DNA from: a virus
Reading direction: 5' to 3' (one strand)
Length of the DNA: 22,927 bases
Virus record (IMG/VR): IMGVR_UViG_3300030419_000299
Span: 1 to 22,927 of that record
How positions within the stretch are numbered: the stretch's first letter is position 1; each line of letters starts with the position of its first letter. The notes beneath the pieces are model-generated. The model made no database searches. It was not told the DNA's origin and saw only the letters and a list, made by a program, of their open reading frames with translations. Position numbers and translations under genes: made by a program. Below, one piece after another: positions 9,184 through 22,927 of the stretch.

Positions 9184-9498
9184 CTATAAAATTTTAGTAA
9201 CTTTTCTACGATCTGGCATAACTGCACCACATCCTCTTGCAATAAAACCACCTTTAGCTTTTCTATGTGGTCTTACTTTTTTAGCAATTCTTTTAGGTTG
9301 TTTAGAAAATTGTTTACCCTTTTTAGTATCTTCTCGTTTCTTACGAGTAGTAGCAGCATACTCAGAAGAACTTAAAGACTTTATAGCACTTTCTGGTAAA
9401 TACCTTTCTCCAGTATCAGCAGATTTTTTACCAGACTTTGTTCTCCATTTTTGTTTAGTCCACTTTTTTAAAGACTGTTGTGATTTTGCAAGAGCCAT
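9184..9498 (-). CDS. Small basic phage protein (DUF5872-like), 104 residues
   Basis: The pattern MALAKSQQSLKKWTKQKWRT, then SGKKSADTGERYLPESAIKS, then LSSSEYAATTRKKREDTKKG and KQFSKQPKRIAKK is a well-kept family in phages that I link, from memory, with the label DUF5872. It contains several short basic helices. Relatives occur as single small genes near lysis and virion genes. The charge suggests binding to nucleic acid or membrane lipid, and no function is established. Its stop codon TAG forms part of the Shine-Dalgarno (TAGGAAAG) of the next gene, so translation should pass directly from one to the other. Confidence 0.72.
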   Translation of the reverse strand: MALAKSQQSLKKWTKQKWRTKSGKKSADTGERYLPESAIKSLSSSEYAATTRKKREDTKKGKQFSKQPKRIAKKVRPHRKAKGGFIARGCGAVMPDRRKVTKIL

Positions 9499-9680
9499 TA
9501 TTTGCCTCTTTGCGACATTGCTTTTTTCTTAGCTTTTTTACTTAATTCACCATAATGAAAAACAGGTTTGCTTGTTTTAGTATGCGTTTTATTTGTATGC
9601 AATTTTCCATTAGGCATTTTGTGATATGCACCCTTCCAAACTGTTCCATCTTTTAAATAATGTTTTACACCTTTTGCCAT
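9498..9680 (-). CDS. Small basic phage protein, 60 residues
   Basis: The sequence opens with MAKGVKHYLKDGTVWKGAYH, then KMPNGKLHTNKTHTKTSKPV, then FHYGELSKKAKKKAMSQRGK. The GxxxHxMPNGxLHTxxxHT pattern recurs in marine phage small proteins I recognise. It is rich in His and Lys, with a beta-hairpin-like first half and a basic helix at the end. The histidines could bind metal, but no fixed motif is present. It is locked between TAATG overlaps on both sides, so it is very likely translated with its neighbours. Confidence 0.7.
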   Translation of the reverse strand: MAKGVKHYLKDGTVWKGAYHKMPNGKLHTNKTHTKTSKPVFHYGELSKKAKKKAMSQRGK

Positions 9681-9883
9681 TACCGATAACCTCCACCTGC
9701 TTTTTTATAAGCCTTTGCAAGCATTTGTGCTTTACGAGCAGACCATTGACCCGGTTTACCACCTTTTGAACCAGACTTAATTCTACTAAATAACCTTTTA
9801 CGCATAGTTGGTTTAGTATAATTACCAGCCTTATTTACAGTAGATTTGGTTTTTCTTTTTCTAGTTGTTTTTTTTCTTGGCAT
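9680..9883 (-). CDS. Small basic phage protein, 67 residues
   Basis: The N-terminus is a run of Lys, Arg and Thr (MPRKKTTRKRKTKSTVNKAG), followed by a conserved-looking core (MRKRLFSRIKSGSKGGKPGQ, then WSARKAQMLAKAYKKAGGGY). I recognise this core from many marine phage genomes, where it is a hypothetical protein. The core probably makes two short helices joined by the glycine-rich turn. It starts one base after the stop of the previous gene (TGATATG) and its own stop overlaps the next start. A nucleic-acid-binding role is inferred from charge alone. Confidence 0.7.
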   Translation of the reverse strand: MPRKKTTRKRKTKSTVNKAGNYTKPTMRKRLFSRIKSGSKGGKPGQWSARKAQMLAKAYKKAGGGYR

Positions 9884-9884
9884 A

Positions 9885-10193
9885 TCAGCACTTCCACCTT
9901 CTTCTTGCTTGCCTAATTCTTGAATTAGGATTGTTTCTAGTTTTTTTAGAACTTTTTTTCAGTTGTCCTAAAGACCTTGCGCAATAAGATTTTCTTCTTT
10001 TTGCAGCTTTACTTCCTTTTTTAACTTTACCTGTAACCGCAGTTTTTAATTTAGAACCGGGATTTGCTTTACGATAAGCACGAACCCCTTTTCTTGTCAT
10101 TCCTGCACCCTTTTTAGTAGGGCGATAATTAGCGCCTTTTCCTTTAGTGGTGCGCCTTATAGGTTTAGCTCTTTTTCTTTTTTGTGTTGCCAT
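9885..10193 (-). CDS. Small lysine/arginine-rich protein (DUF6321-like)
   Basis: The protein has 102 residues and starts in a TAATG overlap. It is extremely basic along its whole length. The segment GAGMTRKGVRAYRKANPGSK, then LKTAVTG, KKGSKAAKRRKSYCAR and a final RRRWKC, matches a recurrent phage family that I associate with the label DUF6321. The charge and small size suggest binding to DNA or RNA, and members are often encoded near virion genes, so packaging with the genome is possible. Two cysteines (in SYCAR and the terminal WKC) might bind metal or form a disulfide. It is the first of four consecutive small basic genes. Confidence 0.75.
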   Translation of the reverse strand: MATQKRKRAKPIRRTTKGKGANYRPTKKGAGMTRKGVRAYRKANPGSKLKTAVTGKVKKGSKAAKRRKSYCARSLGQLKKSSKKTRNNPNSRIRQARRRWKC

Positions 10194-12487
10194 TATAAAT
10201 TCGGTTGCATACTTATTAATTGATTTGAACTATTTAAATTATCTCTATATAAACTCATAAATGCATTGTTATTATCTGGTATAACTACATTAGCATAAAT
10301 ATCTTCTGGCTCATACCATACAGCAAGTTCTGGTATTTCAATTTGTGTATATCCATTAAATCCTTGAACATATCCCATGTATGCAATCAATTGAGATTCA
10401 TCTGCATACTCACCTGTCTCTTGTTGTTGTTGCTTTAACTGTTCTTGTTGATCTTCTATATTCTGTGCAACGATTTGATCTGCAATAACATCTGCATCTG
10501 ATTGACTAACTGATGTATTGCTATCAACTATAGTATCGCTAACTCCTGTACTACCACTACTTGTGTTATTTGCAACACTACTGCTTGTATTCGTTTCAGT
10601 GGTTGTTGTAGTGGTTGAGCCTACTGCTGTGTTGCTACCACTGTTGGTATCTCCTACTGTTGTATTTTGCGAAACCATTGTACTTCCAACACTGCTGTCG
10701 GCATTAAACGAACTAAGCACTTGTTGAGTCTGCATTGCAGAACTTGCAACTTGTGCAGATATACTAGGCGAATTACTGGTGCTTATACCGCCTCCTGAAG
10801 CTGAACTAGCCACTGCTGTACTCGTAGGGTTAGAAACGCCACCAGAAGCCACAGAAGAAGCGTAGGAGCCTCCTGATGATATAGATGTACCTGTAGCCTG
10901 TGCAGATGTTCCAGCAGTTGTACCGCTTACACTACTCGTTGCTGCTCTAATTGTATTAGCAACAACATTTAATTGTTCTGCTTTTTTGTTGTCTTTCTTT
11001 TCTTCATTCTCTGCGACAACAAGCTCGATATCTTCATCTCTGTCTTGTACTTCTTGCTCAACTGTCTGCGAATCATCCAAGTCTCCAGCTTCCTCCTCAG
11101 ATAAATCTGCCAACTCTTCCAATATTTCTTCACTGTCCTCTTGTTCAATCCACTCCTCCAGTTCTTCTATCGTTTCAAACTCTAAATACTCAATAACCTC
11201 TTCTTCTATATATTCTTCAATGTGTTCTTCATATTCAAAATGATCTAATAGAACATCATTTAATCTAGGTAAATCGTAATTAATTACAAATATTTCTTCT
11301 ATTGGTATTATTTCTTCATATATATTTTCAATATATATTTCTTCTTCAATATAACTTAAAGGAATAAGCTCCTCTTCAACAATTAAATTAAATTCTTCAA
11401 TGTATGGATCAAAATATTCTTCTTCAAAAAATAATGTTTCTTCAAAATATAATTCTTCTTCATAAAACTCTACCCCTTGTAACTCAGTAATATATACAGG
11501 ACTTTCTTCAAAGAAATAAATTTCTTCTTCATAGGGATCATAATATCCGTACTGATCGTCTTGATAGTCGTCATAACCAAACATATCGTCTTGATAATAG
11601 GTATCTTCAACAAATGTTTCGACCATGTAACCAGCACAGGTTGGAGAGTATTGAGAATCCAACGAGCATTCATAATCAAAAAGATCATCCCAATAATTAG
11701 GACATTGAGTAGAATACAATCCATCTAAATCACATTGTTGTGTTAGGTAAGCAGCATCATAACCAGAACAAGATGTATCATTTAAAGGATTGCTACAATC
11801 AATACTATTTCCTGATCCAACACCATACAAGCTACCCCCATTTTCAAGTAAAGTATTTGAGGCAGAAGCATTCCAAGTTACATTTACACAAGTTCCTGCA
11901 ACATTAGTTGTGCCTTTGCCACATTGGTCATAAAATAAATATGTATAAAGTTCGTCTGATGCGCCTTGTTCTCCAATTAATACATCATGATTAATAATAT
12001 TTAATGCGCCATATCTAAATTCAAAACTATCGTCTGATTTCCAAAGTATTACCTCAAACGAATTGTCTGTATTGCTTCGATTGTATTCTCTTAGGTTGTA
12101 CCAACCAAACACGCTTTTATCAGTAAAGTTTTTGGCTAATACTTTTGAGCCGTTGTCTCGTATTAAATCAGTCCAAAAAGGATATAAGGTGTATGTAATT
12201 TCAGGCAAAGGATCAGGTGTGTAGTCATTACAATAACCTCCTGACGACCCAAAGTGTAGACAACCATTGGTTGCCATTCGAGCAGATGTAAAATCCTCAC
12301 CATAAAATGTAAAAGTAAAATCTAAATTAAAAACACCGGATACTTGGTCATCACCAACACCCATGTTCGTTGTATTACTTTCGCCTGTTAAATCAATTAA
12401 AGATTGATTTGCTTCATAGATATAACCTGCATTAATTGTAGATACAAATAATAATGCAGATAAACTAACTGCCCTTATCAAACTCAC
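10193..12487 (-). CDS. Large exported protein: nidogen-like domain, Cys repeats, acidic tract, Ser/Thr-rich region
   Basis: The protein has 764 residues. It starts at GTG (12487), only codons after an in-frame stop; no better upstream start exists and this one gives a clean signal peptide (residues 1-20, cut after STINA). Residues 25-200 look like a nidogen-type (NIDO) beta domain: LYPFWTDL, then NSFEVILWKSDDSFEFRYG. Residues 231-286 hold three Cys-pair repeats with the form C-x8/9-C-(S/P/A)-x-Y. Residues 291-500 are extremely acidic, alternating Glu/Asp with Ile, Tyr and Phe. Residues 515-665 are low-complexity Ser/Thr/Gly/Ala and the tail is Gln-rich. The protein is likely periplasmic or on the cell or virion surface, acting with the exported protein encoded just before it; function unknown. 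Confidence 0.7.
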   Translation of the reverse strand: MSLIRAVSLSALLFVSTINAGYIYEANQSLIDLTGESNTTNMGVGDDQVSGVFNLDFTFTFYGEDFTSARMATNGCLHFGSSGGYCNDYTPDPLPEITYTLYPFWTDLIRDNGSKVLAKNFTDKSVFGWYNLREYNRSNTDNSFEVILWKSDDSFEFRYGALNIINHDVLIGEQGASDELYTYLFYDQCGKGTTNVAGTCVNVTWNASASNTLLENGGSLYGVGSGNSIDCSNPLNDTSCSGYDAAYLTQQCDLDGLYSTQCPNYWDDLFDYECSLDSQYSPTCAGYMVETFVEDTYYQDDMFGYDDYQDDQYGYYDPYEEEIYFFEESPVYITELQGVEFYEEELYFEETLFFEEEYFDPYIEEFNLIVEEELIPLSYIEEEIYIENIYEEIIPIEEIFVINYDLPRLNDVLLDHFEYEEHIEEYIEEEVIEYLEFETIEELEEWIEQEDSEEILEELADLSEEEAGDLDDSQTVEQEVQDRDEDIELVVAENEEKKDNKKAEQLNVVANTIRAATSSVSGTTAGTSAQATGTSISSGGSYASSVASGGVSNPTSTAVASSASGGGISTSNSPSISAQVASSAMQTQQVLSSFNADSSVGSTMVSQNTTVGDTNSGSNTAVGSTTTTTTETNTSSSVANNTSSGSTGVSDTIVDSNTSVSQSDADVIADQIVAQNIEDQQEQLKQQQQETGEYADESQLIAYMGYVQGFNGYTQIEIPELAVWYEPEDIYANVVIPDNNNAFMSLYRDNLNSSNQLISMQPNL
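10988..11617 (-). repeat. Low-complexity acidic tract (Glu/Asp alternating with Ile/Tyr/Phe)
   Basis: About 210 codons encode short EEE, EEY, YEEE and IEE runs separated by aromatic or aliphatic residues, then a more purely acidic helix-like part (IEELEEWIEQEDSEEILEEL). There is no fixed period. Short GAA/TAT/TTT codon runs make the DNA look TTC-repeat-like on the plus strand. Confidence 0.75.
11630..11797 (-). repeat. Three Cys-pair repeats of about 22 residues in the exported protein
   Basis: The units begin at C231, C252 and C274 and each contains a second cysteine nine or ten residues on (C240, C262, C284), followed by a tyrosine. The shared pattern is C-x-(N/L)-(P/D)-x-(L/Q)-(N/Y)-x-x-x-C-x-x-Y. 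Disulfide pairing within each unit is plausible in the periplasm. Confidence 0.7.
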
Positions 12488-13607
12488 GCTTACAAGTCAG
12501 TCTTGATTTATTTTGTCCAGCCGAGTTTTCTGTTCTAACGCATTTGGCAACATAGCTGGCTTTCGCTTCTTTGTAATCTGGTCGATCTTTGGGGTTAGCA
12601 GCCCATGCTGCTCTTGCTTCCTCGCCTATCTTGCCCTCATACGGACAAGGCGTGCCTGCCATATACATGGCACTAAACACTCTTACATCTTGGCACATAA
12701 TAGCAACTGCTGCGACTTTCATGCCCATATCATAAAGATACTTTCCAAGTTTTAATCTTTCACAATTTTCATCTCTAACTGTTCTACCAGCCGACAAACC
12801 AAATACTTGTCCTTGAAATGCACCCGACCTTCCTACAGTACAAAGGTCTTGGCTATAGCTCATTATAGAAGGAGCAATCGCAGAAGCAGGCGGTGCTTCA
12901 GTCTTGATGTTCTGATTAATAGTTTGTTCAGACTTTGACTCGTTAATGTTTCGATTTGTGTTATCAGATGTACTTTTGTTTTCATTTACATTTTTGTTAT
13001 TGGTTTGCACATTTGATGTAGATGTTGATTCATTTACATTCTTATTGGTGTTATTCGATGTAGAAGTATTTACATTCGTATTTGTATTCGTATTGTTCGA
13101 TGTGCTGTTGTTTGTGTTCGTATTAGTTGATGTCGAAGTATTTACATTGTTGTTTGTGTTTGTGTTTGTACTCGTTGATGTATTTGTATTGGTGTTGTTA
13201 TTTGTACTAGTCGCAGTCGATGTACTGGTATTTGTATTGTTATTAGTATTCGTTGCAGTTGAAGTATTAGTATTAGTATTAGTATTGCTATTTGTGTTTG
13301 TTGCAGTCGATGTACTGGTGTTCGTATTAGTATTATTGTTTGTATTGCTATTCGTATTAGTAGCAGTAGTAGTCGTTGTATTTGTATTGGTGTTTGTATT
13401 TGTATTTGTATTGGTGTTTGTGTTTGTATTTGTATTAGTGTTTGTATTGGTGTTCGTATTAGTTGTTGTTGCAGTCGATGTAGTAGTCATCGAGTTTTGT
13501 TCACAATACTGATCCCCAGCAGTACAGTCACCCGTCTGATCTGCTTTAACAGCAGGAACATTTAAAAATAATGTTATTAAAAATAATACTGGTAAATATT
13601 TTTTCAT
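12465..13607 (-). CDS. Exported Thr-Asn repeat protein with cysteine-rich C-terminal domain
   Basis: The protein has 380 residues. Residues 1-22 are a signal peptide (MKKYLPVLFLITLFLNVPAV, then KA before the likely cut). Residues 41 to about 205 are a near-pure Thr/Asn tract with some Ser, long alternating TN runs and later NNTNTSTS-type variants, which shade into a charged Asn/Lys/Ser linker up to about 240. Residues 245-380 are a compact domain with six cysteines (C256, C282, C305, C321, C356, C372) and motifs CTVGRSGAFQGQVFG, DENCERLKLGKYLYDMGMKV and CPYEGKIGEEA. Two more cysteines lie at 28 and 35. I recognise the C-terminal domain loosely from marine phage hypothetical proteins but know no function. 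The build suggests a periplasmic or surface protein on a flexible stalk. The gene overlaps its exported neighbour by 23 bases. Confidence 0.7.
   Translation of the reverse strand: MKKYLPVLFLITLFLNVPAVKADQTGDCTAGDQYCEQNSMTTTSTATTTNTNTNTNTNTNTNTNTNTNTNTNTNTNTTTTTATNTNSNTNNNTNTNTSTSTATNTNSNTNTNTNTSTATNTNNNTNTSTSTATSTNNNTNTNTSTSTNTNTNNNVNTSTSTNTNTNNSTSNNTNTNTNVNTSTSNNTNKNVNESTSTSNVQTNNKNVNENKSTSDNTNRNINESKSEQTINQNIKTEAPPASAIAPSIMSYSQDLCTVGRSGAFQGQVFGLSAGRTVRDENCERLKLGKYLYDMGMKVAAVAIMCQDVRVFSAMYMAGTPCPYEGKIGEEARAAWAANPKDRPDYKEAKASYVAKCVRTENSAGQNKSRLTCKREFDKGS
12993..13487 (-). repeat. Thr-Asn coding hexamer-type repeat tract
   Basis: About 165 codons consist almost entirely of ACN and AAY. Long runs alternate Thr and Asn, giving an imperfect six-base repeat. 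Codon choice varies (AAT and AAC; ACA, ACC and ACT mixed), so the amino-acid pattern is kept better than the DNA pattern. The complementary strand shows a matching Val/Phe-rich open frame that is only a shadow. Confidence 0.85.
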
Positions 13608-14023
13608 ATACTATCTGGATCAAACCAACCTTTTGCTATTAAAGTTTGTCTATTTCTAATATGTTCTTCCTCAATCTCTTCTTTGCTTTGACCATCGTAA
13701 GAAACAGCGTAAAAACCATGTATCATCATTTGATTGATATTTATGTCGTTAACATAAAGTTCACCAAGTATTCTTCCAAACTTTCCTTTTTTATCTTTCT
13801 TAGTTTTTATAACAACATCGCCTTTAGATAATTCTTTAACCAAAAAATCTTTACTCATTAGACCTCTAGCTTTTTCATCTTTATCTCTAGTGCGTGATTC
13901 TGGAGTATCAATGCCATACATACGAACTCTTACTTTATGGAATATAGAAAAACCACAATCAATAATTACATCGACTGTATCACCATCTACAACTCTATCT
14001 ACTTCACATTTATATTCGTACAT
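13604..14023 (-). CDS. Staphylococcal-nuclease-like nuclease
   Basis: The protein has 139 residues, the size of a bare SNase domain. All key positions of the thermonuclease family can be lined up: VVDGDT with D15, VRMYGIDTPE with R34, D39 and E42, and KFGRILGELY with R84. These match the calcium ligands and catalytic Arg, Glu and Arg of the Staphylococcus enzyme. The C-terminal helix (EEEHIRNRQTLIAKGWFDPD) is also typical. The expected reaction is calcium-dependent cleavage of DNA or RNA. Unlike most bacterial thermonucleases there is no signal peptide, so the product should stay in the cytoplasm or be packaged. It overlaps the gene for an exported protein by four bases. Its use (host DNA breakdown, recycling or defence) cannot be told from sequence. 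Confidence 0.88.
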   Translation of the reverse strand: MYEYKCEVDRVVDGDTVDVIIDCGFSIFHKVRVRMYGIDTPESRTRDKDEKARGLMSKDFLVKELSKGDVVIKTKKDKKGKFGRILGELYVNDININQMMIHGFYAVSYDGQSKEEIEEEHIRNRQTLIAKGWFDPDSI

Positions 14024-14220
14024 TATCCACCAAAAATAATTGATGCCATTCCAACTACTAAAGTAATCAGTGTGGCTACAATAAAATGTTCAATTCTTTT
14101 TACACGATTAAGCATTTCAAGCCATCGTTCTGCACAAACTGCTTCGTGTTTTTCTATTCTTGTATGCACATTTGATATTCGAGTATTTAACTCAAACTCC
14201 ACATCAGATATTTTGGTCAT
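14023..14220 (-). CDS. Small coiled-coil/membrane protein (XhlA-like)
   Basis: The protein has 65 residues. The N-terminal 42 residues are a charged helix with heptad-like spacing (ISDVEFELNTRISNVHTRIE, then WLEMLNRVKRIE), followed by one transmembrane segment at about 45-63 (HFIVATLITLVVGMASIIFG). This two-part build resembles haemolysin XhlA-type proteins and other small phage membrane proteins near lysis genes. It would sit in the inner membrane with the coiled coil in the cytoplasm or periplasm. It is coupled to both neighbours (ATGA in front, TAATG behind). A role in lysis or in excluding other phages is possible, but neither is shown by the sequence. Confidence 0.65.
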   Translation of the reverse strand: MTKISDVEFELNTRISNVHTRIEKHEAVCAERWLEMLNRVKRIEHFIVATLITLVVGMASIIFGG

Positions 14221-14942
14221 GCTGCTTCTTCAACTTCCCAACAATTAAGGTTAGAAGCAACTGTTCGTCTTTCGCCTTCGCCTCTAAATGGATAAACCAT
14301 GTGAGAAAGCCAAGAAGGAAAAATATACAGTTTTCCTACTTCAGGCTGTACTTCAAAACTTTGTGGTGGTCTTAATCGTTCTACATTCATTATTTCATTA
14401 CGACCATAGTTAAACGCTAGATACCCATCACAAGCACCAGACGCTTCGTATTTGTTATACATAGGACTTCCAGCAGCAGGTTGATCCAGTATTTGTTGTG
14501 GTACTTTGGTCCAACAAGTCGTTGATATACCCATAATCGTTTTAGTGCCGTGATCATGTATTGGGTTGTAATCACCAGCATAACTATGCACCGACCAAGT
14601 TTCATCTATAGCAACTTGTCTATTTTTAGGTAAAGATTGCCCTGTGCTTTTCATAAAGTGATTAATGTATTGAGCACCTAACAAAGTTACAAACTTAGAA
14701 TACTGCCTGACTTTTTCGTGCTCTGGGTCCATGTTTAATTGCTCACCATGAGCAATCTGTCCTACCAATGAATGTGCCAATGATTCTTTATCTGCTTGTT
14801 CTCTAAGATCGTCAAGATAAGTATTTAAATCCTCAACCATGCCGTCTGGCATACGAGTCTCTAATACAAACACCGCAGGCATTGTCCAGATATTAACATC
14901 AATATCTGCTCCCTCTACAGGCACTGCCTCTTTGTCAGCCAT
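14217..14942 (-). CDS. 2OG-Fe(II) oxygenase-like protein
   Basis: The protein has 241 residues. Features of the 2-oxoglutarate/Fe(II) oxygenase jelly-roll are visible: a tryptophan-led strand (ETWSVHSYAGDYNPIHDHG) with candidate metal ligands H129 and D130/H131, and a distal segment GKLYIFPSWLSHMVYPF with H214, followed by R225-R226, one of which would bind 2-oxoglutarate. The layout matches the 2OG-FeII_Oxy_5-like group often found in marine phages. Such enzymes hydroxylate a protein or small substrate using oxygen and 2-oxoglutarate in the cytoplasm; the substrate here is unknown. The first metal site reads H-D-H rather than a plain H-x-D, so the exact ligand set is uncertain. It overlaps the next gene by four bases (ATGA). 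Confidence 0.75.
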   Translation of the reverse strand: MADKEAVPVEGADIDVNIWTMPAVFVLETRMPDGMVEDLNTYLDDLREQADKESLAHSLVGQIAHGEQLNMDPEHEKVRQYSKFVTLLGAQYINHFMKSTGQSLPKNRQVAIDETWSVHSYAGDYNPIHDHGTKTIMGISTTCWTKVPQQILDQPAAGSPMYNKYEASGACDGYLAFNYGRNEIMNVERLRPPQSFEVQPEVGKLYIFPSWLSHMVYPFRGEGERRTVASNLNCWEVEEAA

Positions 14943-15325: not shown

Positions 15326-18300
15326 TTATTCCTCTATTTTAGATTTTAATTGCTCAACTTCTGTCGAGAGTTCTTGGACTGCTTTTACAAGACTAGGTAT
15401 AAACTTAGAATAAGTTAAACCATACATACCCCCATCACTGCTAAGAGTCGTGGTTAAGTTGGTTTCGTCTTCTATTTTATAACCATATTCTTCTTCGAGT
15501 TTTTCAACATCTTGTGCCAAGAAACCTGTGTCTAGCCAGTCTTCTTTATGCTTGCCATTAGGTGTAACACTTAGGTCATCGCTATACTTACTTCTTTTAT
15601 CCCAACGATAAGTAACTGGTTCTAATTTGTTAATAAAATCTAGTCCTGTTTTGAGAGGCTCGACATCTGTTTTATCTCTTTTGTCTGATGCAACTGTCCA
15701 AGAAACTTGAATATTGGCTTCTCCTATATTCTCATCACCTAAGAAAATAGCATTACTTCCTGTTGTTTGATTGCCACCCGGACTTCCTGTAATACCAGCA
15801 TCTTTACCTAAACAAATGTTATTAGTACCAGTTGATATGTTTAAACCAGCACTTTTACCTAATGCAGTGTTGTTTTGTCCTGTAGCATTATTCAATGCGT
15901 TCATTCCAACTGCGGTACAATCGTCTGCGTCTGTGAGGTCTACTAGTGTGTTTGCTCCTATTGATGTGTTTCTTTGTCCAGTAGTAATATTTAGCTGTGA
16001 AGCCCAACCCATAGCTGTATTATCAGCACCTGTCGTAAGGTCCTCCATAACCCTAGTTCCAACCCCAACATTCTCTGAACCAGTGGTGCAAGCCGTTAAA
16101 GTATCTTTTCCCACCGCAACATTGTTTGAAGCTGTAGTGTTTGCTCTTAATGCTCCATAACCAAGTGCTGTATTAAAACTACCTGTTGTGTTTGCGCTTA
16201 AAGACCTAGCACCTACGGCAACTTGATTCGCACCTGTAGTATTTGCATCACCAGACTCAGAACCAATCATTGTATTAAAGTCGCCTGAAGTGTTTTGCAA
16301 CATAGAATTATAACCAACACAAGTATTATGAGAACCAGTGTTTGCTCCACCTAATGCTTCATCACCTATTGCTGTGCATTGTGAAGCAGTTGTGATTTTG
16401 TCTCCAGCTAAATAACCGATAAGCGTGTGTCCAGCACCAGTAGTTATGTCGTTACCTGCTTCGTGACCTATACATACATTTTCAGTTCCAGTTGTATTTG
16501 CTTTTAATGCACCTTTACCGATGGCTATGTTTCCATTAGCTTCAGTCGCTGTTTCATATGCTTCGACACCAATCGCAATGTTATTGGAACCTGTTGTAAT
16601 TGATTGTCCTGCATCACGACCCATACCAATGTTGTTATCGCCTGTCGTGTTTGCTGTTAATGCGTCTTTACCAACTGCTGTTAAAGAAGTTCCTGTGGTG
16701 TTTGATTGTAAAGCTGCATATCCCAATGCTGTGTTATTGGATGCTGTTGTGTTTGCATTTAATGCGCCTCTACCGATTGCCGTGTTATTTGCTCCTGTGG
16801 TGTTAAGCTCTAGGTTTGTTGTTCCTATTGCAGTATTATAATTGCCAGTGGTATTTGTTTTTAAAGCCTCAGTACCCATAGCCACATTTTGAGTACCTGT
16901 GGTATTTGCTCCTAAAGCCTGTACACCTATAGCAACATTATTATTAGCTGTTGTGTTTGCATCTAAGGCATTAGAACCTATCCCTATATTGCTTGCTCCT
17001 GTAGTATTTGCAAGCAGTGTCTCAGCACCTATAGCAATATTGTCCGATGCAGTTGTGTTGTTTGCTAATGCTGTAAGACCAATGCCTACATTTCCACCAC
17101 CAGTTGTATTATCTGTTAATGCTTGATGACCAATGGCAACATTATTAGATGCTGTGGTATTTGCATCTAAGGCATTAGAACCTACAGCTACGTTCTGAGT
17201 TCCTGTGGTGTTTGCTGATAAAGCCTGATGACCTACAGCCGTATTGTTATCGACTGTTGTTGCCACTGCTAAAGTGTTATTACCTATTGCTACATTGAAA
17301 TCGCCTGTCGTGTTTGCTTCTAATGCAGAAACACCCACTGCAATATTTTGAGCCCCTGTTGTGTTCGCAGTCAATGATACTCTTCCAACAGCTACGTTTG
17401 AATGACCTGTTGTACTGGCATCTAGTGACTCCGATCCCACTGCCGTGTTGTTGTAACCTGTGGTGTTTGCTACTAAAGAATTATAACCAACTGCGGTGTT
17501 GTTGGATGCGGTGGTGTTTGCTCCTAATGAACCAGCTCCTAAAGCGGTATTAGTTGCACCTGTCGTGTTTGCTGTCAAAGCATTTTTACCAACTCCAGTG
17601 TTGTTAGATGCGGTTGTATTAGCCACTAGAGCAGCCGTTCCTACTGCTACGTTAGATGCTCCAGTTGTGTTTGCTTCTAATGCTCGTCTACCAATTCCAG
17701 TATTAGCATTGGCTGTTGTATTTGCTGCTAGTGCGTTTTGACCAACCGCAGTATTAGCTGTTCCTGTGGTATTAGCTGTTAAAGCATCTTTTCCTACTGC
17801 TGTGTTGTTATCTGCGGTTGTGTTTGCTTCTAATGCTTGATCGCCAAGTGCTGTATTAGAAGCACCTGTTGTGTTTGTTGTTAAAGCTAAATAACCAACA
17901 GCTACATTATTAGAAGCAGTTGTGTTTGCTCCTAAAGAAGCACCACCAATTGAAACATTCTGATCGCCTGTTGTATTCGCATCTAATGCCCTCATTCCAA
18001 CAGCCACGTTGTTTTCACCTGTGGTATTTGCTTCAAAAACAGAAGCACCAACACCTACATTATACTGACCAGTTGTAGTTGCTTTACCCGCATCATCACC
18101 AACAAAAGTATTGTTTCCACCACTGGTTAATGCTGCTCCAGCACCTTGACCTATAGCTACATTGTCTATTCCTGTCGTAATTGCTGTACCAAGTGCGCCA
18201 GAACCTAGTCCAATATTATCTGTACCGCCTGTTAGATCGAGTACATCGGTGACTGCTGCGCCTGATCCAGCACCATCGGTAACAACCATCTTGATTCCGC

Positions 18301-18643
18301 CATTCGGAATGACAACATTTGCGCCTGTGCCTTGAGATATAGTTACTGTATCACCTGCGCTGTTTTGAATAATCCAACACTTATTTACTGTGTTCGGTGC
18401 TAAAGTAACTGTGCAAGCTTGCGATAAAGAACCTGTAAGAGTAAGAGCCATTGCTCTAGCTGCATCAGATGTACCATCTGCCATCGTAATCGTTGCGGTT
18501 GAAGCATCAGATAGTGCTTCAGAACCACTGCCAAACGCTTCCGCAATTAATTCTAAATTTGTATTGGTACTCGTTCCCCAAGTACCCGACTCATCGCCTG
18601 TAGCGATTTCTTTAAGTCTTAAATCATTTACATAAGTTGCCAT
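15326..18643 (-). CDS. Giant tail fibre with YadA-like repeats and S74 intramolecular chaperone
   Basis: The protein has 1105 residues. Its ATG is preceded by a good Shine-Dalgarno (GAGGAAA). Residues 1-140 form the virion-attachment head (MATYVNDLRLKEIATGDESG), common in marine phage fibres. Residues 143-964 hold about 48 copies of a 17-residue unit, consensus NTAVGxxALxANTTGxx, recalling the YadA/Hia head repeat and suggesting a trimeric beta roll. The C-terminus is a peptidase S74 chaperone: S986-D-K-R-D-K991 gives a Ser/Lys pair five residues apart, the known dyad spacing, followed by a conserved-looking LEPVTYRWD and GFLAQDVE and a terminal coiled coil. By family knowledge the last 120 residues cut themselves off between A985 and S986 after trimerisation. 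It would be the main receptor-binding or long fibre; the receptor is unknown. Confidence 0.9.
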   Translation of the reverse strand: MATYVNDLRLKEIATGDESGTWGTSTNTNLELIAEAFGSGSEALSDASTATITMADGTSDAARAMALTLTGSLSQACTVTLAPNTVNKCWIIQNSAGDTVTISQGTGANVVIPNGGIKMVVTDGAGSGAAVTDVLDLTGGTDNIGLGSGALGTAITTGIDNVAIGQGAGAALTSGGNNTFVGDDAGKATTTGQYNVGVGASVFEANTTGENNVAVGMRALDANTTGDQNVSIGGASLGANTTASNNVAVGYLALTTNTTGASNTALGDQALEANTTADNNTAVGKDALTANTTGTANTAVGQNALAANTTANANTGIGRRALEANTTGASNVAVGTAALVANTTASNNTGVGKNALTANTTGATNTALGAGSLGANTTASNNTAVGYNSLVANTTGYNNTAVGSESLDASTTGHSNVAVGRVSLTANTTGAQNIAVGVSALEANTTGDFNVAIGNNTLAVATTVDNNTAVGHQALSANTTGTQNVAVGSNALDANTTASNNVAIGHQALTDNTTGGGNVGIGLTALANNTTASDNIAIGAETLLANTTGASNIGIGSNALDANTTANNNVAIGVQALGANTTGTQNVAMGTEALKTNTTGNYNTAIGTTNLELNTTGANNTAIGRGALNANTTASNNTALGYAALQSNTTGTSLTAVGKDALTANTTGDNNIGMGRDAGQSITTGSNNIAIGVEAYETATEANGNIAIGKGALKANTTGTENVCIGHEAGNDITTGAGHTLIGYLAGDKITTASQCTAIGDEALGGANTGSHNTCVGYNSMLQNTSGDFNTMIGSESGDANTTGANQVAVGARSLSANTTGSFNTALGYGALRANTTASNNVAVGKDTLTACTTGSENVGVGTRVMEDLTTGADNTAMGWASQLNITTGQRNTSIGANTLVDLTDADDCTAVGMNALNNATGQNNTALGKSAGLNISTGTNNICLGKDAGITGSPGGNQTTGSNAIFLGDENIGEANIQVSWTVASDKRDKTDVEPLKTGLDFINKLEPVTYRWDKRSKYSDDLSVTPNGKHKEDWLDTGFLAQDVEKLEEEYGYKIEDETNLTTTLSSDGGMYGLTYSKFIPSLVKAVQELSTEVEQLKSKIEE
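15752..18217 (-). repeat. Tandem array of about 48 units of 51 bases (17-residue beta-roll repeat)
   Basis: Almost every unit carries NxAxG at its start, AL or SL in the middle and NTT(G/A) at its end. Unit length is 17 residues with very few exceptions: the first counted unit is 18, one near the end is 16 and the last is about 23. The first three units and those from about the 32nd onwards are more diverged, while the central ones are close to consensus with scattered synonymous changes. Confidence 0.9.
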
Positions 18644-18662: not shown

Positions 18663-19496
18663 TTAAGCTGCCTCATCTTTCCAGTTTGGCGACTGTGATG
18701 GACTAACATTTGAATAAGATGGTGACTGACTTGCACCAGCATCTACCCAATTTGGTGTTTGATCAGGAGCAACTGGACTCCAAACCAATAATCCTCCTAG
18801 TTTACTTGTGCCTACAATTCCTGTAATTGAAACACTTACACTAATACTAGCTGTTAAGTCTCCAACCTGACCTGTTCCAGCTAGTCCTGTTATTGAAATA
18901 ACATTATCATTAACAGTGCTAATTGTTCCTAATGCACTTGTTGCTGAAACTCCTGTTGGATAAACATTTGCATCGCAAGTAACTGTTTCATCGCCTTGTG
19001 CGACAGTCGATGCTGTGCCGCTAACACCAACAAGAGCAACACCATTTGCAACAACTGTGCCAACAGCACCTGTACCAGCGACTCCTGTTTCACTGACATT
19101 GGCATCACCGCTAACTGATTCTGTGCCTAAAGCACTAGTACCAGCAACTCCTGTTACAGAAAGATTAGCTACACCTGTAACAGTTAAGCTACTTACTGCT
19201 CCTGTTCCTGATACTCCTGTTTCGCTAACATTCGCATCAGCAGTTATACTTAATGATCCAACCGCTCCTGTTGCAGCAACACCTGTTTCTGTAACATTTG
19301 CAACACCTGTTACAGTTAAACTGCCGACAGCACCTGTAGCTGCAATACCTGTCTCTGCGACATTAGCATCACAACTAACGGTTTCTGTTCCTAGTGCACT
19401 TGTTCCTGCAACGCCTGTTACATTAACTGTAACATTAACAATTGCAGGTTCACCCCAAGGACCAGCACCCCATGTGGACCGACCCCAACCAGACAT
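18663..19496 (-). CDS. 22-residue tandem-repeat structural protein
   Basis: The protein has 277 residues and an ATG start seven bases after the previous stop, with no clear Shine-Dalgarno. Residues 1-16 are a Trp-Gly-rich head (GWGRSTWGAGPWG). From about residue 26 to 245 there are roughly ten copies of a 22-residue unit with the consensus ETGVAGTGAVGSLTVTGDANV, each probably forming a pair of beta strands. The last 35 residues contain repeated SQSP and PNW motifs (TPNW, SQSPSYSNVSPSQSPNW). Repeats of this kind are common in phage tail or fibre proteins, and the gene directly precedes the large fibre gene. It may therefore be a second fibre, a spike stalk or an attachment piece. No receptor-binding or enzymatic domain is apparent. 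Confidence 0.65.
   Translation of the reverse strand: MSGWGRSTWGAGPWGEPAIVNVTVNVTGVAGTSALGTETVSCDANVAETGIAATGAVGSLTVTGVANVTETGVAATGAVGSLSITADANVSETGVSGTGAVSSLTVTGVANLSVTGVAGTSALGTESVSGDANVSETGVAGTGAVGTVVANGVALVGVSGTASTVAQGDETVTCDANVYPTGVSATSALGTISTVNDNVISITGLAGTGQVGDLTASISVSVSITGIVGTSKLGGLLVWSPVAPDQTPNWVDAGASQSPSYSNVSPSQSPNWKDEAA
18762..19421 (-). repeat. About ten tandem 66-base units encoding a 22-residue repeat
   Basis: The encoded units all start with (E/V/P/I)TG(V/I)xGT and contain an LG or VG turn followed by a TV or SV strand. The central units are the most alike and the first and last are more diverged. The DNA copies differ at many third positions, so the array is old rather than a fresh duplication. 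Confidence 0.75.
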
Positions 19497-20941: not shown

Positions 20942-21604
20942 TTATTGAGGCGAAGCAGAAACAAAACCTCTTTGTCTATCAAATCGGTTTTCGTCTCTCG
21001 TAGATCTTCCTTCCATTAAATTACTAAGTCTAACTAAATTTTCTTGAAAACGAGCCTCAAACATATTTGTCTCGTTTAAGTCTTGTTTTAAAAATACGCT
21101 TGCTTCCACTAACGTTCCATACAACAGTAAATCGGGAGCATTTTTTGAAACCCAAGTTGTACCACTGTCCCCTGCCGCAGTTAATGAATTTGGTTGATAT
21201 AGATAATGCAGTTCAAAAGTTAAATTAGCGTTTGGTGTTGGCGCTAAAATAAATGTGTCATCATCAAACTGTCCGTAATATTTAGGCGATCCTGTGGTAG
21301 CCGCTGTAGTTGTATAGTTGCGTATGAAACTAGGGTGCTTTAACAATAGATAAGTGTAATTATTACTACTATCTAAAACAGCCAAACTCAAAGGAGAGAT
21401 AAAATCCGTTGGTGCAGACAAATATTGATTTCCAGAAGCAGCTGTACCTGTTACATTTTTACGAAAAACATTCAGCTCAATAGTGTTAAAAATTCTATTT
21501 TCCGCTTGTTGTATAAACGTATCCAACGTGTTTACAAAAGTGGTTTCAGAACTATCTATATAGTTCTGTACCGCTGTCTTTAGTCCGCTGTATGTAAAAC
21601 TCAT
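20942..21604 (-). CDS. Tail adaptor protein (SU10-type/gp11-like)
   Basis: The protein has 220 residues. The N-terminal part (MSFTYSGLKTAVQNYI, then FIQQAENRIF, then FRKNVTG and APTDFISP) matches a family seen in many short-tailed phages and often annotated as an adaptor or head-tail connector protein. Such proteins form a ring between portal and tail nozzle. The middle is beta-rich and the C-terminal 60 residues are helical (LLYGTLVEASVFLKQD, then FQENLVRLSNLMEGR), as expected for an adaptor with a helix bundle and a beta barrel. It is translationally coupled to the previous gene by ATGA, and its TAA abuts the next ATG with no spacer. This is one of the better-recognised structural genes in the window, though no homology search was possible. 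Confidence 0.75.
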   Translation of the reverse strand: MSFTYSGLKTAVQNYIDSSETTFVNTLDTFIQQAENRIFNTIELNVFRKNVTGTAASGNQYLSAPTDFISPLSLAVLDSSNNYTYLLLKHPSFIRNYTTTAATTGSPKYYGQFDDDTFILAPTPNANLTFELHYLYQPNSLTAAGDSGTTWVSKNAPDLLLYGTLVEASVFLKQDLNETNMFEARFQENLVRLSNLMEGRSTRDENRFDRQRGFVSASPQ

Positions 21605-22362
21605 GTTGTAGGTCCTGCTGTTGCTTTAGAACCACCACCGCTAACATCACCAGCAGTAGCCGTTCCTGTTGAAGTAAACTTATAATTATTATCGTCTACA
21701 ACTGTTATTGTATATCCATCTGAAGCTTCAAGTACAGTTGTTGTTATGCCATCAAAAGCTTTTGTGTTACGAAACCTAACCGTGTCTCCTGTAGTTCTGT
21801 TGTGTTTAAACTCTGTAACTTGAATTTCAGCGTTTGCTCCAGAAGTTAATGTTTTAAATGGATCTAAAGGCAAAAGAGCTTGCGCTGGTCCTACTGAAAC
21901 AAAACCGCCTCCGCCTCTAATAGCACTAGTTGCTGTGCCAGAAGAAACACCAAAACTGTATGTGTCTGTGTTTATAACCGTAATTGAGTATGCGTCAGGA
22001 TCTTCTAAAACAGACGCAGAGAGTCCAGCAAAAGATTCAGTTCCTCTAAACCTAACTTTATCACCAGTTGTTCTTCCATGATCGTCTTCAAAAACAGTTA
22101 CTACTGCGCTAGAAGCCGTAGACAAGAAAGGGTTACTTACTAACAAAGCTTCCGCAACAGGTTCTGTTCTGTCTGGTCTAGGGTTTCTTAACGCTTGTGG
22201 ATCTGTGGCTATATGCGGTGGATCTAGTTGTGGGTGTTTCGTGTCAAACTGATCGTAACCAACACGAAGACCGTTCCACTGCGTTTTCATGTCTTTTAGT
22301 CTATATCTTTGACCAGAAATATCGCAGATTCCCCACGCATACTTACCAGCAGAAAAAGCCAT
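21601..22362 (-). CDS. Virion structural protein with two FCCH-like beta modules
   Basis: The protein has 253 residues and starts at an ATG overlapping the previous stop (TAATG). Residues 1-65 form a conserved-looking head (GICDISGQRY, then KHPQL, then DPQALRNPRPD) that I recognise from marine phage structural proteins. Two homologous beta-rich modules follow at about 80-146 and 174-238. Both carry an H-x-R-T-T-G-D-x-V-R-F-R core, then a V-L-E-x-x-D-x-Y-x-I-T-V segment. They resemble the small FCCH-type beta domain found in many phage tail proteins. The location between two connector-type genes suggests a virion part at the neck. The gene ends in ATGA, overlapping the next start by four bases. 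No enzymatic motif is seen, and the precise role is unknown. Confidence 0.7.
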   Translation of the reverse strand: MAFSAGKYAWGICDISGQRYRLKDMKTQWNGLRVGYDQFDTKHPQLDPPHIATDPQALRNPRPDRTEPVAEALLVSNPFLSTASSAVVTVFEDDHGRTTGDKVRFRGTESFAGLSASVLEDPDAYSITVINTDTYSFGVSSGTATSAIRGGGGFVSVGPAQALLPLDPFKTLTSGANAEIQVTEFKHNRTTGDTVRFRNTKAFDGITTTVLEASDGYTITVVDDNNYKFTSTGTATAGDVSGGGSKATAGPTT

Positions 22363-22927
22363 TATATAACTGTCCTAGACGGAAGAAAATGAGAACTTAC
22401 AGAATCAATGTCCTCAAAGGCTGCTCTATCAAACTCCTCGTCGTAAATTTGTTTTAACAACTGTACTCTATCTGGCGCTCTTTTTATTGCTATGTAATAC
22501 GCTAAACCAGCGGCCATGCACGGAAGAAAACGAAAAACTGTTTCCATAGTGTTTGTATAGTCCCCTACGTCTTGCATCCTTGTTAGTGCGTAATAATAAA
22601 CTACGTCTGTAGAGTTTTCTGGTGTTGGGTATAAATGTATTCTAGGTGTTATGTGTCTTTCTAAGAAAAACTGAGTTGGTCTAGCTTTATCCGCTTTTTC
22701 TGGTGTGTACAAAAAATCAGATCTGCTTATACGCTCAAGTTGAAAATCTGTGTTGTCTCTTTGAATGACAGCCGATGTTATGTCTATAACATCAGTACCT
22801 AGGTCTACATAGTTTGTGCCTTCAGTAACTGTAAAATTTTTCTGCTCAATTAACCACTGATTAAGGCCTCTGTTTGCCCATTCAGCAATCATAAGATTCA
22901 ACGAACGACGTGCGGTTTCTAAATCGT
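22362..22927 (-). CDS. Head-tail connector/adaptor-like protein, 5' end cut by window edge
   Basis: The frame stays open to the right edge, so the true start lies outside the window. The first in-window start-like codon is a TTG at 22901, but the residues before it (DLETARRSLNLMIAEW) continue the protein sense, so TTG is unlikely to be the start. The pattern of a helix ending in L-x-x-M-I-A-E-W-x-x-x-G followed by a short strand resembles P22 gp4-type head-completion/connector proteins and their marine phage relatives, which sit under the portal and start the tail. About 188 residues are visible. The stop overlaps the next gene by one base (TAATG), which suggests coupled translation. The position just ahead of another adaptor gene supports the call, but exact family membership is inferred. 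Confidence 0.7.
   Translation of the reverse strand, partial: DLETARRSLNLMIAEWANRGLNQWLIEQKNFTVTEGTNYVDLGTDVIDITSAVIQRDNTDFQLERISRSDFLYTPEKADKARPTQFFLERHITPRIHLYPTPENSTDVVYYYALTRMQDVGDYTNTMETVFRFLPCMAAGLAYYIAIKRAPDRVQLLKQIYDEEFDRAAFEDIDSVSSHFLPSRTVI

Follow-up and report, generated by a model that had tools for sequence, protein, structure and literature searches.

How can a phage tail fibre change its length and its tip while the fibre itself stays intact? The question is raised by a minus-strand ORF with a long and regular array of repeats, found in a stretch of 22,927 nucleotides (the window) of the IMG/VR record IMGVR_UViG_3300030419_000299. The first-pass annotation, which gave no strand, had described here a fibre with about 48 repeats of 17 residues and an S74 end, and its checkable numbers for the ORF, the repeats and the S74 end were all correct: a position-specific scan counted 48 units over residues 143-958, A985, S986 and K991 are indeed the residues found at those positions, and 120 residues lie between 986 and 1105.

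The gene, its modules and its relatives

The protein matched PHROGs 23837, 4636 and 6002, which are families of virion structural or tail spike proteins (E values between 1e-133 and 1e-178), and with this fibre homology and a position among tail genes it has what defines a caudovirus tail fibre. It is a tail fibre of known type and a member of a large family of marine caudoviruses; fibres bearing S74 domains, marine phage fibres with YadA-like domains and the hypervariability of marine fibre C-termini had been described beforehand (PMC3909814, PMC7029224, PMC8326128). The boundaries of its modules are observed as follows.

15326..18643, minus strand: tail-fibre gene, whole ORF, 1105 aa (ORF call and the PHROG matches above)
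18224..18643, minus strand: residues 1-140, conserved N-terminal domain, putative virion anchor (aa identity of 81-99% among the 80 best IMG/VR contigs; also starts different fibres)
15770..18217, minus strand: residues 143-958, shaft of 48 units of 17 aa (position-specific scan; solenoid when residues 1-400 are modelled by AlphaFold, the repeats having a pLDDT of about 80)
15689..15769, minus strand: residues 959-985, short tip between the last unit and the cleavage site, with A985 as the predicted end of the mature fibre
15329..15688, minus strand: residues 986-1105, intramolecular chaperone of the S74/ICA type carrying the dyad S986/K991, the piece predicted to be released (PF13884, 7dc3 profile, Foldseek, invariant S/D/K)
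15332..15412, minus strand: residues about 1078-1104, helix at the C-terminus, expected to trimerise as the coiled coil of the ICA domain (helix 279-305 in the model of residues 800-1105; conserved VKAVQELS...L)

We compared the gene with about 100 relatives, all of them metagenomic loci. The N-terminal domain was at least 81% identical in the best 80 IMG/VR contigs and, where the contig was long enough, it nearly always preceded the same type of array. At 31-57% identity the same anchor also starts quite different fibres, those of the Roseobacter phages CRP-901/902 and of the Pelagibacter phages HTVC023P/HTVC027P (the last by alignment only). Pelagiphages of the HTVC023P type and roseophages of the CRP-901 type thus share with the window the N-terminal fibre domain and a related virion stabilisation protein, but the bodies of their fibres have neither the 17-residue array nor S74. 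The reverse combination was found as well. The putative tail fibres of the Pelagibacter phages HTVC112P and HTVC111P and a fibre of the Prochlorococcus phage P-SSM2 have the same shaft type (tblastn over 64-87% of the protein), and the HTVC112P fibre (756 aa) has 17-residue units and an S74 end like those of the window, but its array is shorter and its N-terminal anchor unrelated. That one anchor stands on unrelated bodies, and that the same shaft and S74 end stand on another anchor, supports the modularity of these fibres. Judging from the shared anchor, the shaft homologues, the stabilisation protein and two SU10-adaptor-like proteins encoded in the window, it belongs to a marine caudovirus whose structural genes are related to the HTVC023P/CRP-901 group. 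A search of MAG contigs gave two distant contigs only and no host link, and scans of the window for tRNAs and Rfam RNAs found none.

Other genes of the window, all on the minus strand, have features of their own. The two SU10-adaptor-like proteins are separate ORFs (20942-21604 and 22362-22901), both matching the SU10 adaptor family PF24175. Adjoining the fibre, at 18663-19496, is a 277-aa protein with repeats of ~22 residues (66 bp, 3.5 copies detected, 19142-19372) and no Pfam, PHROG or NCBIfam match, and two genes downstream of the fibre a 2OG-Fe(II) oxygenase is encoded (14217-14942), a gene class that HTVC023P and DSL-LC04 also have close to their fibres. The ORF at 13604-14023 had a weak thermonuclease (SNase-like) match, below the cut-off. 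A signal-peptide-like start is followed by ~170 residues of nearly pure Thr/Asn low complexity at 12465-13607, unusual for a phage structural region, and another such start opens a 764-aa protein with a very acidic, Tyr/Glu-rich middle and no family match (10193-12487). At 9184-10193 four small proteins in a row (60-104 aa) are strongly basic.

The chaperone end and the repeat shaft

The C-terminus matched Peptidase_S74 (PF13884) over residues 986-1053 with 45.7 bits, the cut-off being 22, and the sequence profile of the chaperone region matched the ICA domain of MyRF (7dc3, E 8.8e-8). In a medium-confidence model of residues 800-1105 we found the ICA fold with its C-terminal helix, and Foldseek gave 7dc3 (prob 1.00, E 0.012) and 3gw6 (prob 0.99, E 0.12). 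Sequence and fold matches thus lead to MyRF, to 3gw6, which is the intramolecular chaperone of K1F, and to 3gud. The conservation of the catalytic residues is plainly seen in the family alignment: the S, D and K of the motif S-D-x-R-x-K were invariant in all 47 aligned proteins, over a mean column identity of only 34%, and VKAVQELS...L is conserved in the C-terminal helix. The catalytic Ser and Lys are S986 and K991, five residues apart, as in the dyads S911/K916 of endoNF and S587/K592 of MyRF; in both of these the dyad is indispensable for cleavage, and cleavage of MyRF needs trimers (PMC8326128). Autocleavage before S986 is therefore very probably to be expected, given the invariant S, D and K and the indispensable dyad of the two homologues. 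S986, K991 and the motifs after them were taken earlier as the mark of chaperone release of the last 120 residues; a chaperone with an invariant Ser-Lys dyad is supported here, the release itself being a prediction. The endosialidase endoNF of phage K1F, the L-shaped fibre of T5 and the neck appendage of GA-1 are fibres or spikes with S74 (ICA) chaperones too, with the C-terminal domain, a Ser-Lys dyad five residues apart and the C-terminal helix in common with our fibre. The body differs, being a repeat shaft of 48 turns where the known S74 proteins have an enzyme or a triple beta-helix spike, and here the cleavage is predicted.

The consensus of the 17-residue unit is NVAVGYNALEANTTGSN. The spacing is 17 residues throughout, with the exception of one unit of 18 and one of 16 at the ends of the array, and the self-identity at lag 17 was 0.45, the maximum over 1000 shuffles being 0.16. 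Part of the array follows a super-period of 34 residues in which NTTG and NTTA alternate, marginally stronger than the period of 17 (0.46 vs 0.45). AlphaFold2, given an alignment of 44 sequences, modelled residues 1-400 as a solenoid with a regular strand every 17 residues, i.e., one turn per repeat (pLDDT about 80 over the repeats). Foldseek found for this model a YadA-like head, that of BoaA (3s6l), as a weak match (prob 0.85, E 1.1, TM by target 0.46). In the 44 family members scanned, Pfam hits as weak as E 10 included no model of the YadA head families, the single sequence matched no solved structure, and the profile of residues 1-400 matched nothing meaningful. The shaft fold is likely a beta-roll, as had been proposed earlier, in so far as the model is a repetitive beta solenoid; its assignment to the YadA-like type is weak. 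With the left-handed parallel beta-roll heads of YadA-like proteins (BoaA, BpaC) it shares short strands, one turn per repeat and an NxAxG-like core, and the 42 layers of the BpaC roll are comparable to the 48 turns counted here (PMC9543794). It differs from them in its unit of 17 residues (14-15 in YadA-like heads), in having no Pfam YadA match and, in the case of BpaC, in its diverged repeat DNA. The BpaC roll rises 4.8 Å per layer (PMC9543794) and, at that rise, the 48 turns would make a shaft of about 23 nm, so that the fibre would be of medium length and not the very long one first supposed.

Variation of the array among relatives

Variation in unit number is a direct observation: the 50 complete ORFs sharing the N-terminal domain have arrays of 19-73 units. 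The search of related contigs for other repeat numbers that the earlier annotation had proposed thus rules out a fixed count. The pattern of similarity between relatives was that of replaced blocks. Considering the 124 pairs with a DNA identity of at least 88% at the base of the gene (membership of the pairs overlaps), similarity ended at nt 450-650 of the ORF, that is at units 1-4, in 108, which are not independent events, and it returned near or downstream of the end of the gene in 17 of the 124. None of the 22 array blocks that were shared outside the base match (at least 150 bp, at least 90% identity) kept its register; the shift was often a whole-number multiple of 51 bp, and in several cases exactly 2.00, 3.00 or 8.00 units. 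One case is a pair from the same sample (L002/L004), 99.9% identical over 6280 bp up to nt 1596 of the ORF; beyond this point the distal shaft, the tip and S74 are different, and similarity returns in the final coil and further downstream. The S74 DNA of L002 was 90% like that of L003 and 68% like that of L004. Another pair (L003/L006) repeats the pattern, with unchanged base and proximal shaft and a different tip. Overall, the N-terminal identity hardly predicted that of S74 (r = 0.19 over 49 complete ORFs, 1176 non-independent pairs). For most of the replaced arrays no donor turned up among the relatives compared. The differences in length among relatives appear to stem mainly from block replacement, and not from recent slippage, as this sequence comparison suggests.

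Slippage during replication or unequal crossing-over between adjacent units of one genome, with the differences at the tip being secondary, would be another explanation for such an array, after what has been proposed for the near-identical tandem repeats of some adhesins. It would account for the 19-73 units and also for the matches shifted by whole units, which unequal exchange inside one array could produce as well. However, the array shows little repetition in its DNA: Tandem Repeats Finder reported a single stretch of 2.2 copies, units within this array are ~54-55% identical in DNA, and their synonymous codon identity was 0.47 (0.42 expected), without clear decay with distance; synonymous sites between units are saturated, with no marked excess between neighbors. 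Only one of 79 arrays had any two units at least 95% identical, and it reaches the contig end; arrays of near-identical units could be missed in this count, assemblers breaking on them. Besides, no gain or loss of whole units was seen in the shared array of nine near-identical contig pairs. Slippage within the array was rejected for this genome on these grounds, and as an explanation of its shaft length it is largely refuted and in our judgment unlikely. The suggestion that repeat number is a site of rapid change holds, then, for the variation of the count, and fails for rapid expansion and contraction, with saturated units, no unit indels in near-identical pairs and block replacement instead. 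L069 alone had 100% identical units, namely 16 and 38; unit 38 lies where the contig ends, and the identity is probably an end effect of assembly. Fast point mutation without recombination, with diversifying selection on surface positions, was a further way in which arrays could diverge. Most of the variety of the units sits at positions 6, 7, 10, 16 and 17, and positions 16 and 17 had raised pN/pS values (0.50-0.60), which speaks for this explanation. Yet over the stretches still alignable at 85% or more no class of positions was above 1: pN/pS was 0.10 for core and 0.22 for those variable positions in the in-register array, and 0.26 and 0.55 in transposed blocks, the out-of-register block of L052/L053, which contains a gap, being excluded. 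The alignable arrays are under purifying selection and their synonymous divergence (0.157) is no higher than that of the N-terminal domain (0.190), so fast mutation is not needed. Elevated mutation or positive selection was not found by pN/pS. Near-identical blocks recur at other positions and similarity ends abruptly instead of fading, and we consider this explanation very improbable.

Assembly of a repetitive gene from metagenomes might itself create apparent exchanges. Many contigs end inside the array, L002 and L004 come from one sample, and the close pairs are all metagenomic contigs, so that in a single pair what looks like a tip swap could be a chimera joined within a shared stretch. 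Against this, the units are too diverged to confuse assemblers (adjacent units average 53% DNA identity across the collected arrays, which provided 2458 distinct units), and the break at the start of the array is also found between long contigs (44-61 kb), with homology resuming downstream in several pairs. Gross assembly error is unlikely because different metagenomes gave contigs with identical complete arrays (L115/L116, L089/L091, L015/L016, L107/L110), and we give an artefact behind the block exchange only a slight chance. The gene could finally be read as a cell-surface or secreted adhesin, a cargo gene similar to trimeric autotransporters and no virion fibre at all. The repeat does resemble those of YadA-type heads (consensus NxAxG..A, and the weak match to 3s6l). 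Nevertheless, the fibre sequence has no signal peptide or beta-barrel anchor, its C-terminus is the S74 phage chaperone and the Pfam scan gave no YadA anchor. The PHROG matches are to virion and tail families, the gene lies among tail genes near the SU10-adaptor proteins and its anchor is common to annotated tail fibres, all of which makes an adhesin extremely improbable.

A proposed fixed base with exchangeable shaft and tip

We consider it quite probable that the gene combines a fixed anchor, a beta-roll-like shaft and an S74 tip, with shaft and tip replaced by block recombination in whole units. By analogy with its homologues, from which trimer formation, cleavage and receptor binding are deduced, the product would be a homotrimeric receptor-binding tail fibre of four modules, namely the anchor, the shaft of 48 turns, a short variable tip and the S74/ICA chaperone. 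The latter would trimerise the chains, aid their folding and then cut before S986 by means of S986/K991, leaving A985 as the mature end. Shaft length and tip would differ between relatives mainly through recombination that swaps array blocks, sometimes together with the tip, and joins them at different units. Any unit would fit any other, and so reading frame and fold would be preserved. Shaft and tip would form an exchangeable cassette between a conserved base and a conserved C-terminal coil. No conserved DNA recombination site was seen inside the unit, where the constant residues are encoded by freely mixed codons.

Similar arrangements had been detected by Mizuno et al. (2014), who described metaviromic islands and hypervariable host-recognition modules of marine phages from read recruitment (PMC3909814). 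The pelagiphage tail fibres of that work have, as here, a conserved N-terminus, a repeat region and a variable C-terminus, and one has a YadA domain. New in our comparison is that shaft blocks are seen transposed by whole units, and that distal shaft and tip are exchanged while the base is unchanged and the proximal shafts are identical. We would go further only tentatively, with the rather doubtful idea that the array is a diversity generator, i.e., a set of diverged but frame-compatible and interchangeable turns whose blocks can be traded at any unit boundary. If true, the reach, the surface and the tip of the fibre would change together over a constant base of the particle, in what would be a phage counterpart of the shuffling of surface-antigen cassettes.

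Fibre genes rich in repeats do not have to evolve by slippage, and the contig breaks found in them may reflect exchange of host-recognition parts at the level of strains. Block exchange offers a concrete model that can be tested: a common group of marine phages would change the length and the tip of its fibre, while keeping the fibre intact, by joining at any of dozens of compatible turns.
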